From positions 1-64,000 of the forward strand of contig JAIQZU010000033.1 in NCBI GenBank assembly GCA_021776915.1: 64,000 nucleotides of DNA, written 5' to 3'. The stretch comes from Candidatus Scalindua sp. (GTDB taxonomy: Bacteria; Planctomycetota; Brocadiia; Brocadiales; Scalinduaceae). Made by a program: the position numbers and the translations under genes. The notes beneath the pieces are model-generated. The model was given only the letters and a program-made list of their open reading frames with translations, made no database searches and was not told the DNA's origin. The stretch's first letter is position 1. Each line of letters begins with the position of its first letter. Shown here in pieces: positions 7,053 through 62,405 of this stretch.

Positions 7053-7065
7053 TGACATTATGTCA
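7053..7065. promoter_or_regulatory. TGACATTATGTCA palindrome (possible activator site)
   Basis: This is a 13-bp TGACA-N3-TGTCA palindrome of the same type as the two sites upstream of the nxr operon (28133 and 28174). It lies 420 bp before the TPR gene and 230 bp upstream of the minus-strand small gene. Confidence 0.45.
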
Positions 7066-7176: not shown

Positions 7177-7189
7177 TGACATTATGTCA
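7177..7189. promoter_or_regulatory. TGACATTATGTCA palindrome, second copy
   Basis: Identical in sequence to 7053-7065 and 124 bp away. The repetition makes chance less likely. The target gene is uncertain. Confidence 0.45.
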
Positions 7190-7484: not shown

Positions 7485-8528
7485 ATGAAATCTCCCTATA
7501 TTACAATCCCTATAGCAATTATTGGTCTTGTGGCAAGCGTAATAGGGATTAAAACATGTTTCTTTGATAAATCACCACAGGAAGCTGTCGCCCCTGTTTT
7601 AGAAAAACAGACTAGTATAAAGCAAGACACCGAAAAAATTAAACAAGACATAAAGAAAATACATGAGTCATTAATTGCAAAAGGCATCGAACCAAAACAG
7701 CAACTTATAGATGATCTGGAAAAGAAAATCCAAGAACTTGAAAAAGAGCTGGAGGAGCGCACAAGTACAACAAAAGATAAGCGCGCTGAAGAAGCTTTGA
7801 TTGCTTCTAAAGCAGGTAATTATGAGAAAGCCAGGGAACTTTTTGAAACACTCAGAAAGGAAGAAAAGGAAAAAGAGAGAGAGCATGCTAAAACGGCATA
7901 TAACCTGGGCAATGTATATTTTATTGAATTGGATTTCTCGAAAGCACTAGAGGCTTATCTGGATGCCGTAAGACTTGCTCCTGATAATTCAACCTATTTA
8001 AACGAAGCAGGTTATACATTCCACACGTTAGCTCAGTACGACAAGGCAATTAAGTATTATGAGAAGGCTCTAAAGTCTGATTTAATGGCCTTTGGTAAAG
8101 GTCATCCAGATGTTGCTACTAGTTGGAACAACTTGGGGGCGGCCTGGGATGCAAAGGGTGAATACGACAAGGCAATTGAGTACTATGAGAAGGCTCTAAA
8201 GTCTGGTTTAAAGACCTTTGGTAAAGATCATCCACAAGTTGCTATTTATAGGAACAATCTGGGAGAAGCCTGGAGAAAAAAGGGTGAATATGATAAGGCG
8301 ATTGAGTATTATGAGAAGGCGCTAGAGTCTGACTTAAAGACCTTTGGAGAAGACCATCCGAACGTTGCAAGAGGCTGGAACAACCTGGGAAGTGCCTGGA
8401 ATGCAAAAGGTGAATACGACAAGGCGAAAAAATATTTTGAAAAAGCTTTAAAGAGTGTAAAAAAAACTGGGCTACCACATCGTATAAAATTAGTTGAAGA
8501 AAATCTAAAATCTATACGTGAAAGATGA
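7485..8528 (+). CDS. Membrane-anchored TPR protein with coiled coil
   Basis: 347 residues. Residues 5-27 form one hydrophobic segment (signal anchor), so the rest probably faces the periplasm-side compartment. Residues 40-95 are rich in Glu/Lys heptads (coiled coil). From about 100 there are tetratricopeptide repeats: one or two degenerate units, then three or four 42-residue units of the kinesin-light-chain type, such as YDKAIEYYEKALKS followed by FGKDHPxVA and NNLGxAWxxKGE. At DNA level the last units repeat with an exact 126-bp period (8037, 8163, 8289, 8415). The start has AAAGGAAC ahead of ATG. TPR arrays bind other proteins; no partner is evident from the neighbours. Confidence 0.75.
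   Translation: MKSPYITIPIAIIGLVASVIGIKTCFFDKSPQEAVAPVLEKQTSIKQDTEKIKQDIKKIHESLIAKGIEPKQQLIDDLEKKIQELEKELEERTSTTKDKRAEEALIASKAGNYEKARELFETLRKEEKEKEREHAKTAYNLGNVYFIELDFSKALEAYLDAVRLAPDNSTYLNEAGYTFHTLAQYDKAIKYYEKALKSDLMAFGKGHPDVATSWNNLGAAWDAKGEYDKAIEYYEKALKSGLKTFGKDHPQVAIYRNNLGEAWRKKGEYDKAIEYYEKALESDLKTFGEDHPNVARGWNNLGSAWNAKGEYDKAKKYFEKALKSVKKTGLPHRIKLVEENLKSIRER
8037..8430 (+). repeat. 126-bp tandem repeats encoding TPR units
   Basis: The TACGACAAGGC-type unit start recurs at 8037, 8163, 8289 and 8415, exactly 126 bp (42 codons) apart, with few differences between units. Such close repeats can gain or lose units by recombination. Confidence 0.75.
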
Positions 8529-14836: not shown

Positions 14837-15814
14837 TCAACCGCCGATCCGATTCATTACGGCACTGTTCTTTCCTGAATGGACGACTGGCTTCATGTCT
14901 GTAACCCTGAGGAAAGCATCTGTCAGTTTACGCTGCATCTCGTTTTCATCTAAATTGGAAGATCTCAGGATATCTTTTATGTCAACCTCTCCACCAGTCA
15001 GGAGGCACGAACGTAGTTTGCCGTCAGATGTAAGCCTCAGGCGATTACAGGTTTTGCAAAATGGCTTTGACACCGCTGAAATAAATCCTATTGACCCCAG
15101 AGCACCCTTTATTCTGTAAATAGTGGCAGGACCACCTCCAATACGCTGTTTATCCGGTACAAGCTCACCAACCTCCCGGACCATTTCCATTATCTCTGAA
15201 GTCGGCATAAAGCGATCTTCATCAACCATATCCTTCCATCCGGAAGCCATAAGTTCTATGAATCTCAGCTCTATATCTCTCTCCATGATATATCTGACAA
15301 AATCCTGGATTTCATCATCATTATCACCACGCATCACCACTGCATTCATCTTTGTGCCTTTGAAACCTGCTTTTAATACTGCCTCAACCCCATCAAAGAC
15401 GTCAACAATATTGCCTCCTCTTGTTATTTCCGAGAAACGATCTTTTCTCATTGTGTCGAGACTGATGTTCAATCTGGAGAGACCGCTCTTTTTCAATGCA
15501 GTGGCATATTCCTTAAGATAGACTCCATTTGTGGTCAACGCTATATCATTAATACCACTGATCGCCGATATCTCTTTAATAAGAGAGGTGATACCTTTCC
15601 TGACAAGTGGTTCACCACCCGTAATTCTTATCTTGTTTACGCCAAGACTTACTCCATGTTTAATAATCTTCAGAATTTCTTCAAAGCTGAGAATTTCTTC
15701 TTTCATGCTAAGCTCTGTACCACCCGGCGGCATGCAATAGATACATCTTAAGTTACACAAATCTGTAACAGAAATACGCAGATAACTAATTTTTCTTGAA
15801 TGTTTATCAATCAT
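14837..15814 (-). CDS. moaA: GTP 3',8-cyclase (radical SAM)
   Basis: 325 residues. N-terminal radical-SAM motif CNLRCIYCMP (CX3CX2C), the ITGGEPLVRKG strand, and a second C-terminal cluster site CKTCNRLRLTSDG...C. It ends with GG, the conserved C-terminal glycine pair that reaches into the active site in MoaA. It converts GTP to 3',8-cH2GTP in molybdenum-cofactor synthesis, followed by MoaC just downstream. No clear ribosome site precedes ATG 15814. Confidence 0.95.
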   Translation of the reverse strand: MIDKHSRKISYLRISVTDLCNLRCIYCMPPGGTELSMKEEILSFEEILKIIKHGVSLGVNKIRITGGEPLVRKGITSLIKEISAISGINDIALTTNGVYLKEYATALKKSGLSRLNISLDTMRKDRFSEITRGGNIVDVFDGVEAVLKAGFKGTKMNAVVMRGDNDDEIQDFVRYIMERDIELRFIELMASGWKDMVDEDRFMPTSEIMEMVREVGELVPDKQRIGGGPATIYRIKGALGSIGFISAVSKPFCKTCNRLRLTSDGKLRSCLLTGGEVDIKDILRSSNLDENEMQRKLTDAFLRVTDMKPVVHSGKNSAVMNRIGG

Positions 15815-19473: not shown

Positions 19474-22400
19474 TTATCCAACCTTCGTAGTACCACCACC
19501 AAGATACAGTGACATAAACTTACTCTCGTTCGCAGGAGTAAATCCAGTCCTTGCCGGTTCCCATACGCCTTTGGCGCCCAGGCCGCCATCTTCTGCCTTG
19601 GTAATCCTGACAAGGGTCTCCTTTGGCGTTGTATTTACCACATGGTTGTCCGCCTCTCCACCGTGCATAAAACCCATTGCAACCTTCTTCTTGTGGAAAA
19701 GGGTATCTGTCTGATGCATAGGCATCAACCATGACCTTGTTATTGACTGCTGTGAGCCGTATCTGAAGTTAGAAAGATAACCATCAGATGACATAGCCAT
19801 ACCATCCTTCCTTGTCTCATGGGCCTTAACACTCTTCTCTGTTGCAACAAAAGTAGAGTGTTTCATCATAGTTGTATGGTAAGGGTATGATGGATTATAC
19901 TTTGCCCTGACCATTAGCCTGGCAACCTTATAGAAAGGATCATTAGGCTTCCAGCCTCTGTATGGCCTGTCAACAGGGTTTGCATCTACGTATACATAAT
20001 CACCATCATTAATTGCCAGATCCTTGGCCGCAGCCGGATTTATGTGTAACTGATGTTCACCTGCACCGGGGCTACGTTTGTCCATTCTATATGGATCGCC
20101 AAAGTTGTTATTCCATATAAGGTTCCAGTCCACCGTACTCCACTGCGAATGAACCCTGTGCCTCGTCTTGGGGGTCACACAATAAAACCTGTAGCCACGC
20201 TCCCATAGAGGATTTTTTGTTTTCTTGACCTCATTCCACGGCATCTTTATATTCCTTACGTGACGTTCATCTGCACCCATGTGACTTTTTGAAATTCCGT
20301 AATCTTCAGGACGTATATATGGATTTGTACTGACAATTACATTTGGAAGATACGGTGTTGCTTCGACCGCCTCTCTATGGCATACAAAGTTCTCTCCGTA
20401 TTCAATCGCCTCCGGTATATCACAGTAAGAGTGTAGCCTTCCATCATCAGTTGCAAATGGACGGTCATAGACAACCTGCTCATACATTGGCGTCCTCGGA
20501 TACGTACCGAAATTCAAAAGCGCACCGCCCGGAACGCCATACTTGCCGGCAATCATATCATTTACATTGTAACCTCTTGTTGGTACACTACCATCAAAGA
20601 GTCTCTGCATGTAGATCTCCGGCCTGCCTTCCAATACAAATTTCCAGTAGTCAGCAAACCTGCCATCACCCAGGATTTCACCCATTCTCTTTGCCACCAG
20701 CGCAGGTACGACAACATCGTCCTTAGTGTCATGAAGAGGTTTTATTCCGCCTTTCCACACCTGCAGGAATGGATTCGAACATGAACATGTTACCTCATAA
20801 TGCTCAAATTCCATCCATGAATTTACCGGGAAACCTACGTCTGCATACTGTACGGATGATGTCATCATGATGTCACTGGATATAATAAGGTCAATCCTGG
20901 GATTGACATTCTTAAACATCTCATATACCCATTTAGCGTTATTAATCAGGTTGACATTGTTAAACCACATTACCTTAGTAGGAGTATTATAGTGTGTCTC
21001 TCCGGTAAAACTCTTCCTGCCAAACTTTGGTGTATTAACGATCAAAGGCGTATCACCATGGTTCCAATAAGCAACCTCTTCGTCCATTGCATAACTGTGT
21101 GCATGTACCTTTTTGCCATCCAGGTGGGGATCAAGACTCATGTCAAATGGGTCTTCTGCAATAATTCCCTTAAATCCCGGACCTGACCATTTTGAAGCCT
21201 GGAAGTTTCCTGCTTTGTAATTGCCCGCCCAGGTATGAGATCCTGAACCATGGTATCCTATATTACCTGTTAACATAAGAGGCAGATAAGTGGCTCTGTT
21301 ATGCAGTGTTGCATGGAAATAATGGTTTATACCTTCTCCATAATGTATGGAAACCGGCTTGATCGTTGCACAGTCCTTTGCAAGCCTCTCAAGGAGGTGC
21401 GGAGGTGAACCGGTAATATCAGCCGTGGTCTTTACATCAAAGTCCCTGAGATGTATCTTATACATATCAAAAAGAGTCATAACCTCGACTTCTTTACCAT
21501 CAACAGTCTTAACCTTGAATGTACCTTCCAAGGCAGGATCAATGCCTTTGGCCACCATTTTCTTACCCACATCTTCCCTGGTTATTGCTTTAAAATCCTT
21601 GGATTTTGTATCATATATAACATAGTCTCCTAAAGCCTCGCGCTGTTCCTTCTTCATACCCTGTACCGTATGGCTATAATCAAGTTCCGGAGCTTTGTAG
21701 TTTGCAAACACCTCATCAGCCTTAAGTCTCTTCAGTGTATCTGTTCTGACAAGCAGAGGAAAGTCCGTAAATTTCTTGACAAAATCCGCATCATACCACT
21801 TATTATCCATTATGATCTTTGTCATACAAAGGAATATTGTTGTATCTGAAATACCGGTCCTGCAAGGAATCCAGTAATCGGCTTTTGTCGCTGAAGGACT
21901 GTACTCAGGTGTAATAACCACCAGCTTTCCACCCCTTTCCATAACCTCTGTCAACCAGTGTGCCTCAGGCATCTTGTTCTCAATCAGGTTTTTTCCCACC
22001 TGTATAGTCAGTTTTGAATATCTGAGGTCTGCAAAGTCAACATCAGATGTCTGCAGACCATGAACGAATGGATGTCCCGGAGCCTGATCTCCATGCCATG
22101 TATAATTTGAGAACCTTCTTCCTCCCATCGCCTTATCAGGACCAACACCTCTTACGTTGGCATCAAGCAAGGCAAGCATGTTTGAGAAACGATACATTCC
22201 CATATACTTTCCAATAACCCCCAACAGGCCCATACCGCCGCGATTCTTAAAACATCTTGTCCCGGCGCCATTCCAGTGCGTGAGGGTTTCAGGAGCATAC
22301 TTATCTCTCTCAAGCAGTCTCTTCTTGCCCTCTTCACCACTGTATGCCTTAGCTATATGTATCATACCCCTGGCGACGTAATCAATAATATCATCCCATT

Positions 22401-22920
22401 GCATCCTTAATTGCTCATCAGTACCTCTGGATGTAAATTTATATTTTTCTCTATTATCCCAGTCAAGTTCAGGAAATCCGTCATCTGCCCACTGTTTCCA
22501 GCCTTTTCTAAGAAGCGGATATCTTAACCTGTGTGGCCCGTATACCCTTCTAAAGAAGGTGTAACCCTTCAAACACATTCTCGGATTCCATGTTCTCTGC
22601 GGTTTTCGACCCTCAATATCACCGTAATCCTGATGTTCATAATCCTGCTCTACTCTTACAACAACTCCATTTCTGACAAAAGCCCTTACCCTGCATTGAT
22701 GGGTATCGTTAGGTGAGCAGCAGAACGCAAATGTACGGTCATACCTGTACTGATTCCTGTATACATCTTCCCAGTTTCTGTCAGGATAAGCGTCGAGAGG
22801 GTTATCAACCTCTACCGCCGGCTTCAATGATCTAAAGGCCAATGCGTCTCTCATAGGTATCGAAACAGCAGCCGTTACCCCTCCGGCAACCTTCATAAAT
22901 GTCCTTCGCGTAAGCTTCAT
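19474..22920 (-). CDS. nxrA: Nitrite oxidoreductase catalytic subunit NxrA (molybdopterin, type II DMSO reductase family)
   Basis: 1148 residues from ATG 22920. AGGAGG lies six bases before this ATG but directly abuts the in-frame ATG at 22926, which decides the start. The twin-arginine signal is LTRRTFMKVAGG. The FS0 cluster region reads C68-x3-D72-x3-C76 with a later C116, so one Cys is replaced by Asp. YTWHGDQAPGHP places a likely Mo-coordinating Asp at 278. It oxidises nitrite to nitrate (or the reverse) at Mo-bis-MGD and passes electrons to NxrB. It is the last gene of the operon that starts at nxrC. The large size and sequence are those of anammox/Nitrospira-type NxrA rather than NarG. 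Confidence 0.92.
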   Translation of the reverse strand: MKLTRRTFMKVAGGVTAAVSIPMRDALAFRSLKPAVEVDNPLDAYPDRNWEDVYRNQYRYDRTFAFCCSPNDTHQCRVRAFVRNGVVVRVEQDYEHQDYGDIEGRKPQRTWNPRMCLKGYTFFRRVYGPHRLRYPLLRKGWKQWADDGFPELDWDNREKYKFTSRGTDEQLRMQWDDIIDYVARGMIHIAKAYSGEEGKKRLLERDKYAPETLTHWNGAGTRCFKNRGGMGLLGVIGKYMGMYRFSNMLALLDANVRGVGPDKAMGGRRFSNYTWHGDQAPGHPFVHGLQTSDVDFADLRYSKLTIQVGKNLIENKMPEAHWLTEVMERGGKLVVITPEYSPSATKADYWIPCRTGISDTTIFLCMTKIIMDNKWYDADFVKKFTDFPLLVRTDTLKRLKADEVFANYKAPELDYSHTVQGMKKEQREALGDYVIYDTKSKDFKAITREDVGKKMVAKGIDPALEGTFKVKTVDGKEVEVMTLFDMYKIHLRDFDVKTTADITGSPPHLLERLAKDCATIKPVSIHYGEGINHYFHATLHNRATYLPLMLTGNIGYHGSGSHTWAGNYKAGNFQASKWSGPGFKGIIAEDPFDMSLDPHLDGKKVHAHSYAMDEEVAYWNHGDTPLIVNTPKFGRKSFTGETHYNTPTKVMWFNNVNLINNAKWVYEMFKNVNPRIDLIISSDIMMTSSVQYADVGFPVNSWMEFEHYEVTCSCSNPFLQVWKGGIKPLHDTKDDVVVPALVAKRMGEILGDGRFADYWKFVLEGRPEIYMQRLFDGSVPTRGYNVNDMIAGKYGVPGGALLNFGTYPRTPMYEQVVYDRPFATDDGRLHSYCDIPEAIEYGENFVCHREAVEATPYLPNVIVSTNPYIRPEDYGISKSHMGADERHVRNIKMPWNEVKKTKNPLWERGYRFYCVTPKTRHRVHSQWSTVDWNLIWNNNFGDPYRMDKRSPGAGEHQLHINPAAAKDLAINDGDYVYVDANPVDRPYRGWKPNDPFYKVARLMVRAKYNPSYPYHTTMMKHSTFVATEKSVKAHETRKDGMAMSSDGYLSNFRYGSQQSITRSWLMPMHQTDTLFHKKKVAMGFMHGGEADNHVVNTTPKETLVRITKAEDGGLGAKGVWEPARTGFTPANESKFMSLYLGGGTTKVG

Positions 22921-22976
22921 AAACATCCTCCTTATATATGGAAATTTAATACTATGATATTACGTAGTTATTCGTC

Positions 22977-23960
22977 TTACCACTTTCCTGCTTTAATTTT
23001 GTAATATTCTGCACATCTGGAACACACGCCATCCTGTGGCTTCCAATCTGGAAAATCTTCTTTTAAGACTTTGACAATATCTTCATCTTCCGCCGCTTCC
23101 TCCGCCCAATCAAATGATGGAAAACCGCAGAGTGTACATGTAGTACCCGGTAGTGGGCCCAGCTTCTTTGTCTCCTCTATAAGCTCTTCTGCTGAACGAC
23201 TTCCTGCCGCTAATGCCAGGACTTTGTTATTATCCTTTGATAGTTCAACCATCCTGTCATGAGCCATAGGTTCTTCAGCTTCCCACATTTTACTAAATAT
23301 CAATTCTCTTGTTTCATCAGGTATTTTACTGAAGAAAGAGTCGAACTCTCTCTTCCTCTCTTCTCTGGTTGCTGTAGTTTCCAGTCCCTTGTTAACCAAT
23401 CGGCCGTCAACAGAGATATCCCAGAAAAGCCTGTATCTGTCCCTCATTAAGCGATCTTCCATAGGAGACGGGCTAAACTCCTCATTTACATTATACTTGA
23501 ATTTACTATTCATCATGTCAGAAACGTGCATAAGCTCATGCCTGAGTACCCTGCGTATCTCTCTGCCGTCCTCAATGAAAAGCTCTGGGTATAGCCTTAT
23601 GATGACTTTCTTTCCTTCATCTACAACATTCGAACCTTCATTCTGCCTGGTAGTCGCCCTTCTGACATGTATCTCTTCTACAACTTCTTCAATATCAGGG
23701 TATTCATCAAATATACCTCTGACATAAAGGTCGTACCCAAGCTTGTTGAAGATATCGTTATCCAGTTCTTTGAATTTCCTTGCTCTCTTTTCCTGTTCCA
23801 ACTCATAGATAGCGTCTCTTCTTTCGTGATATTCCTTATAAATCTCAAGATCACCGGCCATTTCCTGTTTTGCCAGCCCCTTATATACGATATCATCAAC
23901 CAACTGCTGATCGTACATTATCTCAAGTGTTTTAGTATCTTCTTCCTGTAGTTTAGGCAT
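22977..23960 (-). CDS. NXR-operon protein with HELMH motif and C-terminal Cys-rich domain
   Basis: 327 residues from ATG 23960, which has GAGGAGG and overlaps the chaperone stop by 8 bp. An upstream start at 24050 would run deep into the chaperone gene. Residues about 140-165 carry RRVLRHELMHVSDMM, a zinc-metallopeptidase-like HExxH. The C-terminal ~60 residues (CTLCGFPSFDW ... DFPDWKPQDGVCSRCAEYY...GKW) match the C-terminus of the exported protein at 24783-25385. There is no signal peptide, so it is cytoplasmic. A role in NXR processing, folding or metal insertion is inferred from position only. Confidence 0.6.
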   Translation of the reverse strand: MPKLQEEDTKTLEIMYDQQLVDDIVYKGLAKQEMAGDLEIYKEYHERRDAIYELEQEKRARKFKELDNDIFNKLGYDLYVRGIFDEYPDIEEVVEEIHVRRATTRQNEGSNVVDEGKKVIIRLYPELFIEDGREIRRVLRHELMHVSDMMNSKFKYNVNEEFSPSPMEDRLMRDRYRLFWDISVDGRLVNKGLETTATREERKREFDSFFSKIPDETRELIFSKMWEAEEPMAHDRMVELSKDNNKVLALAAGSRSAEELIEETKKLGPLPGTTCTLCGFPSFDWAEEAAEDEDIVKVLKEDFPDWKPQDGVCSRCAEYYKIKAGKW

Positions 23961-24729
23961 ATTCCTCCTCGTCCATACAAGAATCACACGCCATTGCGCT
24001 TTTACCTTCAAGTCTCGACATATAGTCAGGTTCATTACCCTGATATTCATCTATCTCTTCTGGATCGACATTAAGTTTTTTCATTTCTATGTGAACAAAA
24101 CTATCTGCCAGCTTTGTAGCGTGCCTGTAAAATGCTTCCGGAGTTTTCTTCGATGCTGACGTTGCAAATGCATGTATCCATCTGCCAATGTGTGAATTTA
24201 AAAACTTCTTCTTGCCTGACAGACAGGCTTCCTGCTTCTCATCACTATGGTTTTCTATTGCATATGCCAGTTTATATGTCAGAAAATGCAGGAACTCCAG
24301 TTCAACGGCAATATGGTCCCATCTTCTGCTGGATGCCTTATCTTCCTCAATCTCTATACCATAAGCTTTATAAAATCCTGAAATATCTGAAAGATCCTGT
24401 GTTTGCTGCCATATGTGTGAACCGCTGAAATACATTTCGTATGGCGGACAATCCATTGCAACAGTCGCTCCACCAAAAGTAGCATGATAGCCTTGAGATA
24501 ATGTTTCAACATCAGCCCCCTGCAACCCTTCCTGCAGATCATTAAAGGTTTCAGACAATTCGCCGTTTCCGTGTAGTCCCAGACAGATTTTCACTTCTTC
24601 CATATACTCCTTATTATTTAATAAATCCACAGCCTCTTTGTTCGGTTCGAGAAGACACGTTGAAAGAAACTGATATATCTGACTCGCCGCGAGCAGATCC
24701 TCTACATTCTCACTGATTTTGTTTTCCAT
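23953..24729 (-). CDS. TorD/NarJ-like molybdoenzyme chaperone
   Basis: 258 residues, all-helical in appearance. Typical TorD-family features: YQFLSTCLLEP near the N-terminus, CPPYEMYF around 93-100, and RRWDHIAVELEFLHFLTYKLA, corresponding to the D-H-ExEF helix of the family. The tail has CDSCMDEEE. It should bind the Tat signal of NxrA and hold the subunit until Mo-bis-MGD is inserted. It is encoded inside the operon, between nxrB and nxrA. AGAGGT precedes ATG. Confidence 0.82.
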   Translation of the reverse strand: MENKISENVEDLLAASQIYQFLSTCLLEPNKEAVDLLNNKEYMEEVKICLGLHGNGELSETFNDLQEGLQGADVETLSQGYHATFGGATVAMDCPPYEMYFSGSHIWQQTQDLSDISGFYKAYGIEIEEDKASSRRWDHIAVELEFLHFLTYKLAYAIENHSDEKQEACLSGKKKFLNSHIGRWIHAFATSASKKTPEAFYRHATKLADSFVHIEMKKLNVDPEEIDEYQGNEPDYMSRLEGKSAMACDSCMDEEEYA

Positions 24730-24782: not shown

Positions 24783-25385
24783 TCATTTCACATTATCAAA
24801 ATAATCCTGCACACTAGCTGATTTGTTATAACCGATAACGTATTCATCTGTAGTAGTTGCCAGGTTGCCATCATACCATTTACCAGACCTGACAGCATAA
24901 CATTCGAAACAGTTGCGGCAAACACCATCTCCCTTACTCCACCCGGAATAATCTGCCTTTATAAGTTTCTCGGTATCGCTATCTATCAGGCTGCTATCCA
25001 GCCAGAAATATGTAGGATTCCCACACAAAGGACACGGGCTATGGTATTTGGATGCTTCTACATTTGCAGGAGTCAAATATTTCACCCTGGACTGCCCTTC
25101 CGCCTGTTTTATTCTATTTACCCAACCTTTTTCTCCCTGAATCCAGTAAACGTCAGAATAATGCGGTTTGCCTGATTTGGTATCTTCATTTGGCTCTTCC
25201 TGAAACAGGCCCCACTGAATACCACCTGTATTCCTTTGGTGATACTTAGGATCATCCGCAGGCTTAAATGCCTCAAAACTTGCAGTCCATTCTTCTGCCA
25301 GAACAGTTGTGGAATTGAGTCCTGTAACACTAATACCTATAAAGAAGAACATGCTAAATACACAAAACAATCTCGGGTATTTCAT
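24783..25385 (-). CDS. Exported NXR-operon protein with Cys-rich domain (unknown)
   Basis: 200 residues. A Sec signal peptide (about 1-31, ending VLAEEW) sends it to the same side as NxrABC. The mature part is small and aromatic-rich, with YHSPCPLCGNPTYFW, DYSGWSKGDGVCRNCFECY and SGKWYDG. The two CxxC pairs, and the spacing WxxxDGVCxxC...GKW, are shared with the C-terminus of the 22977-23960 protein. It lies between nxrB and the chaperone. It could be a structural or assembly component of the exported NXR complex. I cannot link it to a named subunit. Confidence 0.6.
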   Translation of the reverse strand: MKYPRLFCVFSMFFFIGISVTGLNSTTVLAEEWTASFEAFKPADDPKYHQRNTGGIQWGLFQEEPNEDTKSGKPHYSDVYWIQGEKGWVNRIKQAEGQSRVKYLTPANVEASKYHSPCPLCGNPTYFWLDSSLIDSDTEKLIKADYSGWSKGDGVCRNCFECYAVRSGKWYDGNLATTTDEYVIGYNKSASVQDYFDNVK

Positions 25386-25435: not shown

Positions 25436-26698
25436 TTAATATGTGATCATTCTCTTTTCATCACTCTCCCATGTTGGCTCCTCGACCTTAACCCTGACCA
25501 TTTCAGTGCCGTCTGAAGCAAAGCCAATCACGGTATCATTATACACTTCAACCTTCTTCCCCATTATCTCAGACTCATAAATCTTTTCTCCATCCTCAAT
25601 TTCAAACTTTGAAAGCATGGTTTGTGTAGTCCTGAAAAGTTGCAGTACCGCCATCAGGGTTCTCGAAGGAGCCGCATACTTGTCAAGCGCTTCATCCACT
25701 CCGGGTCCAAACATCTGCCTCAAATAACTCCTTGGCGCCCACCTGGGTGGTATATAATAAATATTAGGCTCTGTACCAAACTGAGGGTAAAGAGGCAGTG
25801 CTACTTTGTGAATATGTATCAGCCAGTCCATAGGATTCTTTGGATCAGGTTTTTTATAATCTCCTGTCAACAATCCATTTAATCTTATCTTGCCTACACA
25901 CGCAGCCATACATCTGGCTTCCATCCTTCTACCTTTTGTAATAGGATCTTTTCCTTCAACCCTTGGGTAACATCCAATGCATTTTTCAGACATCCTTGTT
26001 TCACCTCTGTACATCGGCTTTTTATAAGGACACTGCTCCACACACTTCCTGTATCCTCTGCAACGTTTCTGGTCTATCAATACAATACCGTCTTCCTTAC
26101 GTTTATATATAGCCTTCCTCGGGCATGCAGCCAGGCAGGCAGGATAAGTGCAATGGTTACATATTCTCTGCAAGTAGAAAAACCATCTCTTGTGCTCCGG
26201 AAGCTCAGAAGATTCGGCCGCTGGTCCTGTCTCATAGTTTGTTTTCTCACTCGCAGCAGTGTCTTCATAAATATTTGGGAATCTCCACTCCTTATCGTCT
26301 GGGATATAACCTACAGCAACCTGATTAAGTCCTTTTGTCTTGGCTAATTCAAAGATAGTGTCACCATTGTATAGACCGTAAGGAGCCTTAGTTTCATCCT
26401 TATCTTCGGCAGATGTATACCACTCCATCGGATTGTTGCCATTATCCCATAACAACTGTAGTATTTTATGATCCCAATGTTGAGGATAACCGCCATAAGG
26501 CTTGGTCTCAACGTTATTCCACCACATATATTCCTGGCCTTTACTGTATGTCCATGTACTTTTGTGGGCCATAGTGCAGGTCTGACAGGCAATACACCTG
26601 TTTATATTAAAGACCGCTGCAAACTGATGTTCCGGCCTTGATTCGAAGTATGGATATTCCATCGTTCTACCAAGATGCCAATTGTGAACAAGCGTCAT
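25436..26698 (-). CDS. nxrB: Nitrite oxidoreductase iron-sulfur subunit NxrB
   Basis: 420 residues, AAGGAGG ahead of ATG. Four cluster motifs: CIACQTCTMAHK (36-47), CNHCTYPACLAACP, CRGYRKCVEQCPYKK and CIGCYPRVEGK followed downstream by CMAACVGKIR. This is the NarH/DmsB-like arrangement for three 4Fe-4S and one 3Fe-4S clusters. It has no signal peptide of its own and is expected to cross with NxrA through Tat. It carries electrons from NxrA to the haem subunit NxrC. The sequence is a well-used marker for nitrite oxidisers and anammox bacteria. Confidence 0.93.
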   Translation of the reverse strand: MTLVHNWHLGRTMEYPYFESRPEHQFAAVFNINRCIACQTCTMAHKSTWTYSKGQEYMWWNNVETKPYGGYPQHWDHKILQLLWDNGNNPMEWYTSAEDKDETKAPYGLYNGDTIFELAKTKGLNQVAVGYIPDDKEWRFPNIYEDTAASEKTNYETGPAAESSELPEHKRWFFYLQRICNHCTYPACLAACPRKAIYKRKEDGIVLIDQKRCRGYRKCVEQCPYKKPMYRGETRMSEKCIGCYPRVEGKDPITKGRRMEARCMAACVGKIRLNGLLTGDYKKPDPKNPMDWLIHIHKVALPLYPQFGTEPNIYYIPPRWAPRSYLRQMFGPGVDEALDKYAAPSRTLMAVLQLFRTTQTMLSKFEIEDGEKIYESEIMGKKVEVYNDTVIGFASDGTEMVRVKVEEPTWESDEKRMITY

Positions 26699-26764: not shown

Positions 26765-27709
26765 CTATTTTACAGTCTCAATCTTCAATGGACGCCATCT
26801 TATACTGACAGATTTTTGTCCATTTCTATCACCCTCTTTTCCATTCCATACCGCCATGTTAAAGAATGTTGACATACCGGGTACGAACTGGACATCGTTT
26901 TCATCTGAAGTTGACAATGGCCTGTAGATTACCACATCCCATTTACCATTGTTCCATGAACCTTTACCGTTTACATCCTGATTCTCCTGCGATGTCAAAG
27001 TCCCAAATCCTACAGCATTCAGGTCCTCCACTGATCGGCCCCTGGGAAGCGACAGCAAGGAACCAGCAGCAATTCCACCGGCCATAAGGTCAGCACTATC
27101 GAATGCCTCTTTATGGAAATGTATTGGATCAGGACTAAAATCAAAATCTGTAAACATGTTGGGATACTCATCTTCCATATGTTCTTTTCCGCCAGCGACA
27201 TGTAATTCCTTTTCCCAATCAGCCTTCCAATGCCATATATTTACAGCTTTACCTCTGTCACCCATCCTTGGACTAAATGGTTTCTCCGGCGATATTACCT
27301 TAACTGTTTCTAAAGGAAACATCAATCCAACGGCATCTCTGAATTGTGCATGTGCTATCGCCCTGTCATTCTTGCTGGCGTCACTCCATTTAATACCAAA
27401 GAAAATCGTTTCGCCGTTATGGAAGCCTCTGATCGCTACCTCCAGCACAGAACCGCCACCGTTAGGAAATGACAGATCCTGCATCTGCAAATTTACTGTA
27501 TACGGTTCTGCCTGCCCCAGAGCCAGATCAGCACCATTTAAATCCGACGCTATGTACTTGACGGTTAACCCCTCTTCAGTTGGTATATTTTCTTCCATTG
27601 ATATTTCCTTATCAAGACCCTGTGAGAAAGTTACACCGCTACATAAAAAAAACATTACGACTAAGGTACTTCCGAAGTAAACAGACTTTCGCAATAGGCA
27701 TTTCATCAT
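26765..27709 (-). CDS. nxrC: Nitrite oxidoreductase exported subunit NxrC (haem-binding type)
   Basis: 314 residues from ATG 27709; GGAGGT seven bases upstream favours this over the frame's GTG at 27724. Signal peptide MMKCLLRKSVYFGSTLVVMF...TFSQG. The mature part follows the ethylbenzene-dehydrogenase/DMSO-reductase gamma family: FHNGETIFFGIKWSDA, DAVGLMFP, VNIWHWKADWEK, VVIYRPLS and MAVWNGKEGDRNGQKSVS. This fold binds one haem b through Met/Lys or similar ligands. It is the first gene of the operon and the terminal electron exit of the complex. Confidence 0.88.
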   Translation of the reverse strand: MMKCLLRKSVYFGSTLVVMFFLCSGVTFSQGLDKEISMEENIPTEEGLTVKYIASDLNGADLALGQAEPYTVNLQMQDLSFPNGGGSVLEVAIRGFHNGETIFFGIKWSDASKNDRAIAHAQFRDAVGLMFPLETVKVISPEKPFSPRMGDRGKAVNIWHWKADWEKELHVAGGKEHMEDEYPNMFTDFDFSPDPIHFHKEAFDSADLMAGGIAAGSLLSLPRGRSVEDLNAVGFGTLTSQENQDVNGKGSWNNGKWDVVIYRPLSTSDENDVQFVPGMSTFFNMAVWNGKEGDRNGQKSVSIRWRPLKIETVK

Positions 27710-28007
27710 CTCAATTACCTCCACTTTTCGTTAAATTGGATTTATTTCTTTCTTAATCTTAATCGGGAACTCAACATCATTATAAAACGTAACACTAAAA
27801 ACTCAACCTCAAAATCATAAATCTGAAAAAAAATTCTGTTATTTTAGTCATACATACATTTAATAAACGAAATGATCGGCTGATTAGTTCCGGCCAAAGA
27901 TGCTTTTTTCACTCTGGCAAACAGAGTCGTGCGGGAATGGTAATAAAAGTACAGTACTATGATAACTGTAATAATCCATGAAGTGCCCCCACAAATTGAT
28001 AAATTTA
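27710..28007 (-). promoter_or_regulatory. Long 5' leader of the nxr operon
   Basis: If transcription begins about 12 bp after the sigma-54 -12 element (near 27996), the mRNA has a leader of nearly 290 nt before nxrC. It contains a perfect ACTCTG/CAGAGT hairpin with a 5-nt loop (27911-27927) and an AGTAC/GTACT hairpin near 27948. No open frame with a good ribosome site is visible, apart from the GGAGGT used by nxrC. A leader this long leaves room for post-transcriptional control. Confidence 0.45.
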
Positions 28008-28022
28008 GCAATAAATGTGCCA
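28008..28022 (-). promoter_or_regulatory. Sigma-54 promoter of the nxr operon
   Basis: On the minus strand the sequence is TGGCACATTTATTGC: TGGCAC, five bases, TTGC, a perfect match to the -24/-12 consensus of sigma-54 promoters. It points toward nxrC. Two activator-like palindromes lie 111-178 bp upstream and an NtrC-type activator gene follows them. Confidence 0.8.
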
Positions 28023-28132
28023 CACTAAATCATACAAAAAATTTTACATTTAACATCCACGGTTATAAAGATATATGATAATGGGCAAATGCACATAAGA
28101 GTTTTGTGTTACGAAGCCAGTTTCATTATAAT

Positions 28133-28145
28133 TGACATAATGTCA
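28133..28145. promoter_or_regulatory. Upstream activator palindrome TGACATAATGTCA
   Basis: A perfect 5-bp half-site palindrome about 140 bp upstream of the predicted nxr transcription start. Its centre is 41 bp (four helical turns) from the second copy, a spacing typical for paired NtrC-family enhancers. Confidence 0.65.
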
Positions 28146-28173
28146 TATCCGCTTTTGTACAGAAAAAAACATC

Positions 28174-28186
28174 TGACATTGTGTCA
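28174..28186. promoter_or_regulatory. Second upstream activator palindrome TGACATTGTGTCA
   Basis: Same TGACA-N3-TGTCA layout as 28133-28145, on the same helix face. It lies about 185 bp upstream of the predicted nxr start and 119 bp from the end of the activator gene. Confidence 0.65.
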
Positions 28187-28304: not shown

Positions 28305-29738
28305 TCAGCTATTTATATTAACATCCTCTTCCTGCCCCTTTCCTTCTTCCTGCTTTTCTTCCTCTTCCAGGGAATTCATTTTTCTGTATATAGTTCTTGG
28401 CGTAATGCCAAGCAAATTTGCGGCAATTTCTTTATCTCCTTTTGACCTTCTCAAAGTTTCAATAATTACCTTTTTCTCGATCTCGCGAAGCGGCATACCA
28501 AATGGTATAGTTAACTTTCTCTCCTCAATCTTTTCCCTGGAGATATTTTCAGGAAGGTCCTTTTGTGTAATTACCCTGTCCTGTGTTAAGACTACTGCCC
28601 TTTCGATTACATTTTTTATTTCACGCACATTACCCGGCCATTGATAGTCGGTCAAAATATCCAAAACATCCTCTGCAATCCCGTCTACTACCTTATTATT
28701 CATTTCCTGGTAAATCTTAAGAAAATGGCTAATCAACAAAGGAATATCTTCCCTTCTCTCTCTTAAAGGTGGCATGTTTATGGTAATCACGTTTAAACGG
28801 TAATACAAATCCTCTCTGAATCTTTTTTGTTTAATAGCGTTTTCAAGATTAACATTCGTTGCTGAAATAATGCGTACGTTGCTTCTTAATACTTTAGTGC
28901 CTCCCAATCGTTCAAATTCACCTTCCTGTAAGACACGAAGCAGCTTGACTTGAATAGAGGGAGTTATTTCTCCTATTTCATCTAGAAATAAAGTCCCCTC
29001 ATTGGCCAATTCGAAACGTCCTTCTTTCTGGCTGACGGCACCGGTAAACGCTCCTTTTTCATAACCGAAAAGTTCGGATTCAAGCAGGGTATCCGGCAAA
29101 GCAGCACAACTCACCCTTATAAAAGGTTTATCACTTCTTGCGCCTACGCTATGAATAAGTGATGCAATAGACTCTTTTCCCGTACCATTTTCCCCCTGAA
29201 TTAAAACAGACGCCTGACTGGGTGCAACTTGCTCAGCTAATTTTATAACATCACGCATTACGTCACTTTGCCCGATAATATCAGCGTGTCTATCGTGTTC
29301 GGAATGTGCCAGTTGCTCATGCAGGAATTTATTTTCAACAATAAGAGCCTGTTTCTCTATGGCCTTTTTAATCATATTGGCAATTACAATTTTCTTGAAA
29401 GGCTTTGTAATAAAATCGTAAGCACCGTCTTTCATGGCCCCCACAGCTTTCTCTATTGTCCCGTGTGCAGTGATCAATATCACCTCTACTTCCGGTTTGA
29501 CCAATTTTGATGCCTTAAGCAGCTGCAACCCATCCATTTTTGGCATTTTCAGATCTGAAAGCATTACGTTGACTTTCTTTTCCCGCAAAATGTCTAAAGC
29601 CTTTTCACCCTCATCTGCCAAAAGGACTTCGTAGCCTTCTTTAGAAAGCATTCTTGACAGTGCAAGTCTTATACTTTCCTGGTCATCAACAATCAAGACT
29701 GTCTGTTTTGCCAAGTTATTCAACCCTCTCCTCTCCAC
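28305..29738 (-). CDS. NtrC-family sigma-54-dependent response regulator
   Basis: 477 residues as the longest frame. TTG 29714 ([11 protein letters not shown]) is better spaced from GGAGAGG than GTG 29738. Domains in order: receiver with acidic pair VDD and phosphoacceptor Asp in [15 protein letters not shown]+ domain with Walker [10 protein letters not shown], the sigma-54-contacting GAFTGA and [10 protein letters not shown]; Fis-type helix-turn-helix [21 protein letters not shown]. It overlaps the kinase gene by 23 bp. It should activate sigma-54 promoters, and the adjacent promoter with paired palindromes before nxrC is the obvious candidate target. Confidence 0.9.
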
Positions 29739-31395
29739 AACCTTTAACCGGAAAACTAACAGTCATAGTTGTACCTTTTGTAATCGTGCTTTTGCACATA
29801 ATATCACCTCCGTGTCCCTCCACAGTCTTCATCGTCAGTGCAAGGCCCAACCCCGTGCCCTTAACCTTTGTGCTATAAAACGGATCAAATACTCTTTGGA
29901 TATCTCTCTTGCTAATGCCAGAACCGGTATCAGTTATATTAATTTCTATATTATCACCCTTAAGCCTTGTAGATATACTCAGTTTGCCACCATCAGGCAT
30001 TGATTCAAAAGAGTTTTTCAGGATATTAAGAAATGCCTGCTTTATCTGGTTAGTGTCGAGCAATATTCCTGGTAGATTTGGCGCATAATTCTCTTTCAAG
30101 GAAATGCCACTCTGTGACATTTCCTTGTTAAAGAATTTTGCAAGCTCAACCAATACATCATTAATAAATGCCGGCCTTGTCTCTAATTTGGGAAACCTTG
30201 CAAAACGTAAATATTCATCGCTAATTTCCGTTAAACTATCTACTTCATTCAGAATAGACTGTATCAAATTTTCAGCATCTTTATTTTTTCGTCCGTTATA
30301 ATTACTGATTTCATCATACAACAGCTCTGTATTTAAACTAATTGAACTTAAAGGATTTCTTATTTCATGAGCGACCTTTGCAGACATCTCACCTATAGTT
30401 GCAAGACGTTCACTATGCAGTAACTGATGCTCCAGTCTTTTTCTTTCTGTAATATCATGGCTTGTCAATACGGTGCCCCAATATTTGCCATCGTGATCGA
30501 ATACCGCAGAATATGTGTTGTACAAAAAACCACTCTTAATCCTTACTTCCTGGTGCTGAGAAGTCTCAATTCCCTTTCTAAATTTCTCAGTAATTTTTGA
30601 CGCCACGCCTCCTATATAAGGAATCTGACCGTTTTTTATTGATTTATTAATTATGTTTTCCCTCTTCACTTTCCATGCATTTTCAATTTCCCTATTGCAC
30701 ATTGTTATTTTATCGTCAGTGTCTATAAATATAACTCCCTCAGCCATGTTTTCTATTGTTGATCTTATCTCAAACAGCACATCGTCTCTGCTCTTTCTCA
30801 ATCTATCCATTATAGATGTCACAAAATAAACTGAAATAAAAATCGTGCTTGCAAGAGCAAAAAATATACCCAGTATATACACTTCAGAGTGCCAGAGTTC
30901 TTCACCAAATTCAAATGTAGAAAGGATTTTTAAAGGCTGGTGAGGTATTAACGCATAATACTCCATGAACAGTAACAGAGCAAAGAGGCAGACAGCAAAC
31001 AGTGCCTGTAGATAACTATACTTTTTCTCTAATAATATCCCCCCTATTATGGCATGAAATATGAAATAAAATATAAAAGGATTTTCGATACCGCCTGCAA
31101 AGTATATTAAGCATGTTAAGAAAACGAGATCTAACATGATTTGTATGCCCGCATGCTTCTGTACAGCAGTAAATGTCTTATTACGAAGAACTTTTAGATA
31201 GCAAATAAACCCCGCATTTGACAACCCTAAAATTATTCCTATTATGTAAAGAGGGGCGACCCATGTAACAACATCAAAAACACTACTGGCAAGATAAGTC
31301 GTAACAAACAATCCAAAGACAGCGATCCAGCGCAAATGAATCAGCCAATATAGACGTTCAACTAATTCCGCCTTCATAATGCCTTCTTTGAACAT
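29716..31395 (-). CDS. Membrane PAS-containing sensor histidine kinase
   Basis: 559 residues. About six hydrophobic helices in the first 195 residues form the membrane sensor part, without a large exported loop. A PAS domain follows (about 215-335, ENMAEGVIFIDTDDKITMCN). Then HisKA with the phosphorylated His in AKVAHEIRNPLSSISLN, and HATPase with NILKNSFESMPDGG, DTGSGISKRD and GTGLGLALTMKTVEGHGG. It is the NtrB/AtoS type that phosphorylates the NtrC-type regulator encoded next. The signal is unknown. A location beside nxr suggests redox or nitrogen-oxide status, which is inference. Confidence 0.88.
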   Translation of the reverse strand: MFKEGIMKAELVERLYWLIHLRWIAVFGLFVTTYLASSVFDVVTWVAPLYIIGIILGLSNAGFICYLKVLRNKTFTAVQKHAGIQIMLDLVFLTCLIYFAGGIENPFIFYFIFHAIIGGILLEKKYSYLQALFAVCLFALLLFMEYYALIPHQPLKILSTFEFGEELWHSEVYILGIFFALASTIFISVYFVTSIMDRLRKSRDDVLFEIRSTIENMAEGVIFIDTDDKITMCNREIENAWKVKRENIINKSIKNGQIPYIGGVASKITEKFRKGIETSQHQEVRIKSGFLYNTYSAVFDHDGKYWGTVLTSHDITERKRLEHQLLHSERLATIGEMSAKVAHEIRNPLSSISLNTELLYDEISNYNGRKNKDAENLIQSILNEVDSLTEISDEYLRFARFPKLETRPAFINDVLVELAKFFNKEMSQSGISLKENYAPNLPGILLDTNQIKQAFLNILKNSFESMPDGGKLSISTRLKGDNIEINITDTGSGISKRDIQRVFDPFYSTKVKGTGLGLALTMKTVEGHGGDIMCKSTITKGTTMTVSFPVKGCGEERVE

Positions 31396-61531: not shown

Positions 61532-61982
61532 ATTATAAATACCCCAACCTGAATAAACCAGAATAACAGGAGTTCAGTAAATTACAAAACTCAAATAACA
61601 AATTACAATGTCTGAATGATCAGAATCAAGACTCTGAAGACAGTTTTTTTATATATTACGGTAATAATTATGACTGTCAACAGAAAGTCATTACTGTAAA
61701 TTATGATTTATTATCATGACAAAACATTATGTTTTGCCGGTTACTACCTAATAATATTTCACACAAGAAATAAATGTATTCTGGTCATTGTGTGTTGTAA
61801 AAATAGGTACTATTTACTTAAAAGAGTGAGCACCCTCAAGCAACTCAGTTGGATAACTAATCGTAAGTATTATAATACATGTACTATACGACATCTATTT
61901 TAAATCTACAATGCCTTGGCACATTAATTGCGAGTTTACACTAAATAAATTTAAATAATTGTAGCGGGAGAGGTAGTTAGTT
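61532..61982. other. Divergent intergenic region without recognisable feature
   Basis: 450 bp between cbiG (minus) and the PilZ gene (plus), strongly AT-rich. I found no inverted repeat, riboswitch core or coding frame that I would support. In particular no cobalamin riboswitch box was evident upstream of cbiG. Confidence 0.4.
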
Positions 61983-62405
61983 ATGCTTAAATTAAAAACA
62001 AATCAAATTAATATTTCAAAGTGTGAGGTTTCAGAGAGAAGAAAGTATCAAAGAGTTGAGAAGGCAATTATTATAAGATTTCGAATCAGGCCTCAAAAAG
62101 GTCAGGCACTGGCGCCTTCTGACTGGGACATGGTAGGTGTAAATGATTTGAGTGCCAGAGGTTTGTTCTTTAATTCCAGCTATAACATAGAAATCGGAAC
62201 CGTCCTGGATTTAAGGATTGGTTTCTCCACATCTACAGTTCCTGTTAAGTGTAAGGGAATTGTCACCCGCGTAAAAGAACAGCCGCACACATCTATATTT
62301 GGTATCGCAACTGCGTTTACGGAAATAGAAGAACACGAAAAAGAGATGATAGATAGGTTTGTCAATGCAACCTTACACTCATATCCAACGGTACTAAATT
62401 ACTAA
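61983..62405 (+). CDS. PilZ-domain protein
   Basis: 140 residues. The c-di-GMP-binding signature is visible: ERRKYQRVEKAI (RxxxR) and NDLSARGLFFN ((D/N)xSxxG), about 30 residues apart, then the beta-barrel strands VLDLRIGFSTSTVPVKCKGIVTRV. Only this domain is present. It should respond to cyclic di-GMP. GGGAGAGG precedes ATG. Confidence 0.85.
   Translation: MLKLKTNQINISKCEVSERRKYQRVEKAIIIRFRIRPQKGQALAPSDWDMVGVNDLSARGLFFNSSYNIEIGTVLDLRIGFSTSTVPVKCKGIVTRVKEQPHTSIFGIATAFTEIEEHEKEMIDRFVNATLHSYPTVLNY

Follow-up and report, generated by a model that had tools for sequence, protein, structure and literature searches.

The nxr operon of an anammox bacterium, which encodes the key nitrite-oxidising complex, is likely to be transcribed from a sigma-54 promoter under the control of an activator-kinase gene pair adjacent to it, within a regulon of paired-site promoters that extends over nearly the whole family. 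This reading, which we hold with reasonable confidence, comes from a 64,000-nucleotide stretch of DNA of Candidatus Scalindua sp. (hereafter, the window) and from its comparison with other genomes of the order. At the level of the organism, a large part of the nitrite-based energy metabolism in this family is probably co-ordinated by a single two-component regulator encoded nearby. Anammox bacteria account for a large share of the nitrogen lost from the sea, and no published regulatory circuit for their core catabolism was found in the open-licence literature.

The promoter, TGGCACATTTATTGC, occupies positions 28008-28022 of the window on the minus strand and matches the consensus exactly: the GG-N10-GC core, with GG at 28021/28020 and GC at 28009/28008, is flanked by TGGCAY...TTGC. 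Because of these positions of GG and GC, the transcription start is predicted at 27996, the same coordinate near which it had been placed by the first-pass annotation, which had also noticed the exact TGGCAC-N5-TTGC on this strand upstream of nxrC. The probable start codon of nxrC is the ATG at 27709, behind GGAGG, so that the predicted leader is about 287 nt long. The strict -24/-12 pattern is seen twice in the window, against 0.14 occurrences expected by chance. The second exact match, TGGCACATTAATTGC, is at 61917-61931 on the plus strand, 67 bp before a 140-aa open reading frame (61983-62405) that looks PilZ-like by eye; a search upstream of this match for the palindrome TGACA-N3-TGTCA found none. 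The sigma factor itself, RpoN, is encoded in 16 of the 17 family genomes, including the source genome (G000:C80:49867-50340, E 1.2e-57, over the cut-off).

The genes behind the promoter all lie on the minus strand. The first gene of the controlled operon is nxrC (26765-27709; EB_dh; 7b04 chain C, E 1.6e-96, 326 bits), followed by nxrB for the iron-sulfur subunit (25436-26698; Fer4 domains, with a match to the DMSO reductase type II beta subunit model that stays below the cut-off), a 200-aa gene (24783-25385) taken from the open reading frame list and showing no Pfam match, a gene for an NXR assembly chaperone (23953-24729; profile matches of the Nitrate_red_del / DMSO reductase type II chaperone-like kind), a 357-aa gene (22977-24050), also from the list and without a family match, and nxrA for the catalytic molybdopterin subunit (19474-22926; 7b04 chain B, which is subunit A, 1862 bits). 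Judged by the matches of NxrA and NxrC to the anammox NXR structure 7b04, the operon behind the promoter is nxr. A MoaA-like molybdenum cofactor gene (14837-15814) is found on the same strand 3.7 kb downstream of nxrA.

Upstream of the promoter there are two palindromes, the candidate activator sites, which emerged from the pattern scan, the family alignment and the paired-site search: the promoter-distal TGACATTGTGTCA (upstream activator site 1, 28174-28186) and the promoter-proximal TGACATAATGTCA (upstream activator site 2, 28133-28145). Their centres, 28180 and 28139, are 41 bp apart and lie 184 and 143 bp upstream of 27996, in agreement with the initial estimate of about 185 and 140 bp and a 41-bp separation. 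Such paired dyads on one face of the DNA, 100-200 bp upstream of the start, have the layout of NtrC-type enhancers. When up to one mismatch is allowed, TGACAT-NN-TGTCA occurs 10 times on the two strands of the window, with 1.55 occurrences expected; its exact form is present in only 8 places of the 3.79-Mb genome, 4 of them in the window, and the backwards control gave 0. Elsewhere in the window the palindrome recurs twice in perfect form as TGACATTATGTCA, at 7053-7065 and 7177-7189, 124 bp apart and upstream of a TPR gene (7485-8528, plus strand); there is no sigma-54-like site near them, and they are possibly decoys or relics.

The arrangement at nxr was footprinted in 17 family genomes (G000-G016, G000 being the source genome). 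A close NxrC is encoded in 16 of them, the exception being G002; the nxr upstream region is cut by contig ends in G010, G011 and G013, and 13 regions are readable (G000, G001, G003-G009, G012, G014, G015 and G016). In all 13, representing four genera of the family, TGGCAYNNNNNTTGC has two palindromes upstream of it, spaced at 40-42 bp, one palindrome of G016 carrying one mismatch. The first-pass annotation had stated that absence of the sites from close relatives would refute its proposal; they are there in every readable genome. Where the pair is exact, as in twelve of the regions, it lies 111-126 bp from the promoter. By contrast, nxrC follows the promoter at anything from roughly 200 to 880 bp, about a fourfold range; the steady spacing of pair and promoter together with the variable distance to nxrC is the signature of an enhancer-promoter unit. 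A search for the same promoter and palindromes upstream of nxr in other anammox genomes, suggested at the same early stage, thus had a divided outcome: they were recovered throughout the readable family regions, but in five Brocadiaceae-like genomes neither the activator, nor paired sites, nor a strict -24/-12 element was found directly upstream of nxrC (as distinct from further up their longer cluster). On the evidence of these five genomes, the idea that anammox bacteria in general share the circuit was rejected.

The palindrome pairs are not confined to nxr. When all 62 genomes from the order were searched without bias for pairs of TGACA-N3-TGTC separated by a gap of 27-31 bp, matches were obtained in 16 of the 17 family genomes, in 0 of the 45 others and in 0 backwards controls; a relaxed pattern, applied to the family genomes, brought in more operons, with control matches numbering 2 in total. 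Downstream of each of the 58 pairs examined there is a GG-N10-GC promoter with a good score, with its -24 element at 101-134 bp (median 118). The promoter score was reached by 1.9% of dinucleotide shuffles, a rate that may fairly be up to twice as high since the orientation of each pair was picked by the better promoter score, and by 0 on the opposite side of the pairs. As the same paired-site promoter precedes several operons of nitrite metabolism and electron transport, it appears to define a regulon with more than one target, of which the first-pass annotation had noticed nxr alone. The target genes are functionally coherent, with one common theme, and the sets of targets vary between species. 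The paired-site promoters probably make up a regulon, specific to this family, that serves the catabolism of nitrite and the electron transport belonging to it.

Specifically, the source genome carries such a promoter on contig C6 before the gene for a 957-aa octahaem cytochrome, which is followed by genes for a CarboxypepD_reg protein, a bd-oxidase-I-like membrane protein and EB_dh/cytochrome c proteins. Further targets are Rieske/cytochrome b operons of several types (C13 of the source genome; G004:C4, G009:C29, G015:C67 and G016:C1), the genes for a FocA/NirC channel, an HPP protein and a dCache sensor on C16, in an order kept in G001, G004, G008 and G013, and the gene for YceI on C81. Among the other genomes, G016 has a target combining an HPP protein with an MFS transporter, G003 and G015 have a SLAC1-type transporter, and nirS, the gene for cytochrome cd1 nitrite reductase, is a target in G004, G008, G009, G011 and G012. 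As a universal target nirS was rejected: the two copies of G000 and those of G003 and G016 are without pair and promoter, and that of G005 is without an exact pair. Since both nirS genes of the source genome (G000:C23:4122-5777 and G000:C72:94594-96237, matching G004 nirS at 79% and 76%) are without paired sites, the control of nirS seems to differ between species of the genus.

Two rearrangements bear on the membership of this set. The five Brocadiaceae-like genomes have an EB_dh/cytochrome/universal-stress-protein cluster immediately upstream of nxrC; in the source genome the homologous cytochrome cluster is on another contig, behind the same type of paired-site promoter, and the split has also been noted for S. 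profunda, where scal00689-694 are separate from the genes of the nxr cluster (PMC3655542). The split cluster and nirS point to a Scalindua-type, probably marine, identity of the bacteria studied here. In turn, yceI is found behind the nxr-type promoter in two genera, in G015, between promoter and nxrC, and in G016, where it reaches up to the contig end, and has a paired promoter of its own in several species. The split of the cluster and the placement of yceI both argue that nxr, the cytochrome cluster and yceI belong together. Common control would tie the octahaem/bd-like complex, YceI, HPP and the SLAC1-type transporters, whose roles are unclear, to nitrite metabolism.

The genes next to nxr, on the same strand, had been described as those of an NtrC-type activator with GAFTGA and of its membrane kinase, and the domain searches confirm both. 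The candidate activator (28305-29738, minus strand, 477 aa) is a response regulator of the NtrC family, comprising a receiver, an AAA+ domain with GAFTGA and a Fis-type HTH (PF00072, PF00158 or Sigma54_activat, and PF02954 or HTH_8, all above cut-off); the sensor histidine kinase (29716-31395, minus strand) combines a six-TM PilS/RegB-like sensor containing GGIENPF with PAS, HisKA and HATPase domains. By the established mode of action of NtrC-type activators, the phosphorylated protein would bind both palindromes, oligomerise, loop to the sigma-54 holoenzyme and open the promoter by ATP hydrolysis. We propose that transcription of nxr from its sigma-54 promoter would require an activator of this type at two palindromes TGACA-N3-TGTCA, 40-42 bp apart, with 101-134 bp between the end of the pair and the -24 element downstream of it, and that activation would proceed by the loop-and-ATPase route. 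The binder would most likely be the response regulator encoded just upstream of nxr, phosphorylated by the adjacent six-TM PAS kinase. The same paired-site promoter would drive nxr, the cytochrome/bd-like complex, the Rieske/cytochrome b operons, FocA/HPP nitrite transport, YceI and, in some species, nirS. Of the original suggestion that this two-component system switches nxr, the promoter and the pair, being conserved, and the sigma factor, being encoded, have stood; that the adjacent activator is the binder, rather than a paralog, we still infer.

The sigma-54 regulon could be real and its palindromes nevertheless be bound by another activator of the NtrC family, the neighbouring pair being linked to nxr in some other way. 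We consider this unlikely, albeit worth weighing seriously. Each genome encodes many paralogous NtrC-type activators with 40-50% identity; G002 retains an activator that is 79% identical, yet lacks both the pair and a close NxrC; G001 does have the sites, but its activator is encoded away from nxr; and G061, a member of another family, encodes an ortholog of 62% identity and is likewise devoid of pairs. The paralogs, G001, G002 and G061 all count against the neighbouring regulator as the binder. On the other side, kinase and activator immediately precede nxr, in the same orientation, in every genome whose contig extends far enough, with the exception of G001, an adjacency kept in three genera. 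The activator orthologs of the family are 76-94% identical, with a nearly invariant recognition helix, and among the 45 other genomes of the order, none of which has pairs, only G061 encodes a close ortholog (E <= 1e-180). In particular, no close ortholog was found in 30 Brocadiaceae-like (f4) genomes that do have a close NxrC. The distributions of activator orthologs and of pairs agree except for G002 and G061, both of which have the regulator without pairs.

Several further observations concern this regulator. In G001 (C56) and G002 (C24), which belong to one genus, the kinase-activator pair, away from nxr, follows the gene for a 165-aa secreted-looking protein, and G015 contains a second, decayed copy of the activator (G015:C24:2458-3159, 72% identity, with 6 TGA and 1 TAG in frame). 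Upstream of the kinase-activator operon, no such site was found through which it might regulate itself; this result, the nirS copies of the source genome without sites and the differing target sets are weak points of the proposed circuit. A scan of GTDB contigs retrieved only remote activator relatives (40-54% identity), none of them near nxrA or nxrC.

It is far less probable that the palindromes serve a regulator other than an enhancer-binding protein, such as a repressor or a CRP/FNR-type factor, with sigma-54 activation coming from elsewhere. A palindrome alone does not identify its protein; however, an odd-length 13-bp dyad that is always paired at 40-42 bp, always 101-134 bp from a -24 element and always accompanied by a sigma-54 promoter has the layout of NtrC-type enhancers, unlike that of repressor or CRP/FNR sites. 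What speaks for such a regulator is a further conserved element between pair and promoter. At nxr this is a block, ATTATCATATATCTTTATAA...GTTA (28049-28085, minus strand), seen in the alignment of the family nxr promoters; it is analogous to, but different from, an ACTTA[CG] element that 27 of 59 promoters carry some 43 bp before -24, compared with 3% in shuffles. The latter is part of a third common element, TATCT...ACTTA[CG], at a near-fixed position (e.g. G000:C6, G000:C13 and G000:C81). The presence of an extra element between the enhancers and -24 suggests a site of a DNA-bending protein or of a second regulator. Finally, that promoter and palindromes are chance matches to a short consensus is hardly credible and was rejected by the backwards controls and shuffles: the window does hold orphans, namely the -24/-12 element at 61917 without palindromes and the palindromes at 7053/7177 without a promoter, but the conservation across genera, the zero controls, the strict coupling of pair and promoter and the functional coherence of the targets stand against chance.

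The proposed system, with the adjacent regulator as enhancer-binding protein, resembles several known ones without coinciding with any. It shares with NtrC/NtrB the succession of receiver, AAA+ (GAFTGA) and Fis-type HTH, the -24/-12 promoter and the two palindromes near whole helical turns apart, whereas its palindrome is TGACA-N3-TGTCA and its targets are catabolic nitrite and electron-transport genes. The activator scores 425 bits against a cut-off of 558.6 for NtrC proper (NR(I), TIGR01818) and falls short of the equivalog cut-offs for NtrC, AtoC and ZraR. As in PilS/PilR, a kinase with a six-TM domain and PAS is paired with an NtrC-type activator; the match to PF25323 (8.2e-9, 35.9 bits, cut-off 27) denotes PilS-type architecture only and implies no pilus control. 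In contrast to PilS/PilR, the targets include no pilus genes and the sensor has GGXXNPF.

RegB/RegA (PrrBA, ActSR), which governs respiration and energy metabolism, likewise has a six-TM sensor with GGXXNPF. The differences are an extra PAS domain in the kinase described here and an output through an AAA+ sigma-54 activator, a domain that RegA does not have. The kinase scores 100 bits against the RegB/PrrB/ActS equivalog cut-off of 350 (NF033792), and no cysteine was seen in its H-box stretch when the translation was read by eye; in RegB, the conserved redox cysteine of the kinase core is Cys-265. The heptapeptide GGXXNPF is the ubiquinone-binding motif of RegB (PMC8191878). It is present in the kinase sensor in 13 of 13 family orthologs examined, with varying XX, and in 0 of 62 kinase-like open reading frames near the remote activator relatives. 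Because the sensor keeps this motif, the redox state of the quinone pool is the leading guess for the signal, which may also be another nitrite-linked cue; we take GGXXNPF as a lead to a similarly working quinone sensor, not to RegB membership. More tentatively, with the odds slightly against it in our estimate, a RegB-like quinone-redox kinase acting on an NtrC/sigma-54 activator could be the master switch of nitrite uptake by FocA/HPP, of its oxidation by NXR with the cytochrome partner complex and, in some species, of its reduction by NirS, as well as of bc1-type complexes, in one anammox family, with this wiring absent in the Brocadiaceae-like bacteria.

Outside the anammox bacteria, the closest parallel is Nitrospira, where sigma-54-dependent regulators are encoded beside nxrAB (Lucker 2010, Koch 2015, as cited in PMC6606698 and PMC7522533) and the highly expressed regulator of N. 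moscoviensis is NifA-like (PMC6606698, PMC7522533). The key enzyme and the adjoining gene for a sigma-54-type regulator are the same; Nitrospira, however, belongs to another phylum, and the available parts of these reports present the case as gene adjacency, describing neither enhancer pairs nor a wider regulon. None of the remote Nitrospira activator loci that we examined is near nxrA or nxrC. The first-pass annotation had not put the circuit forward as an established one, in line with the open-licence literature, which contains no report of such a circuit, of the enhancer sites or of the regulon in anammox bacteria, and no paper joining anammox with 'enhancer binding protein'; in the passages searched, neither the S. 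profunda genome paper nor that on the NXR structure deals with how nxr is regulated. Thus, the kind of system (NtrC/sigma-54) is ordinary, whereas its target set and lineage are new, and for anammox bacteria it seems not to have been described before.

With -24/-12 and paired TGACA-N3-TGTCA as a defined cis-code, and with a named candidate regulator, the adjustment of nitrite use by anammox bacteria becomes directly testable; the code also yields predictions of the operons whose expression would vary together in metatranscriptomes already at hand. Paired-site sigma-54 promoters are also found before genes for small proteins (MELLHD..., about 150 aa), followed by a gene for a small putative lipoprotein, in G005:C14, G007:C297 and G009:C110.
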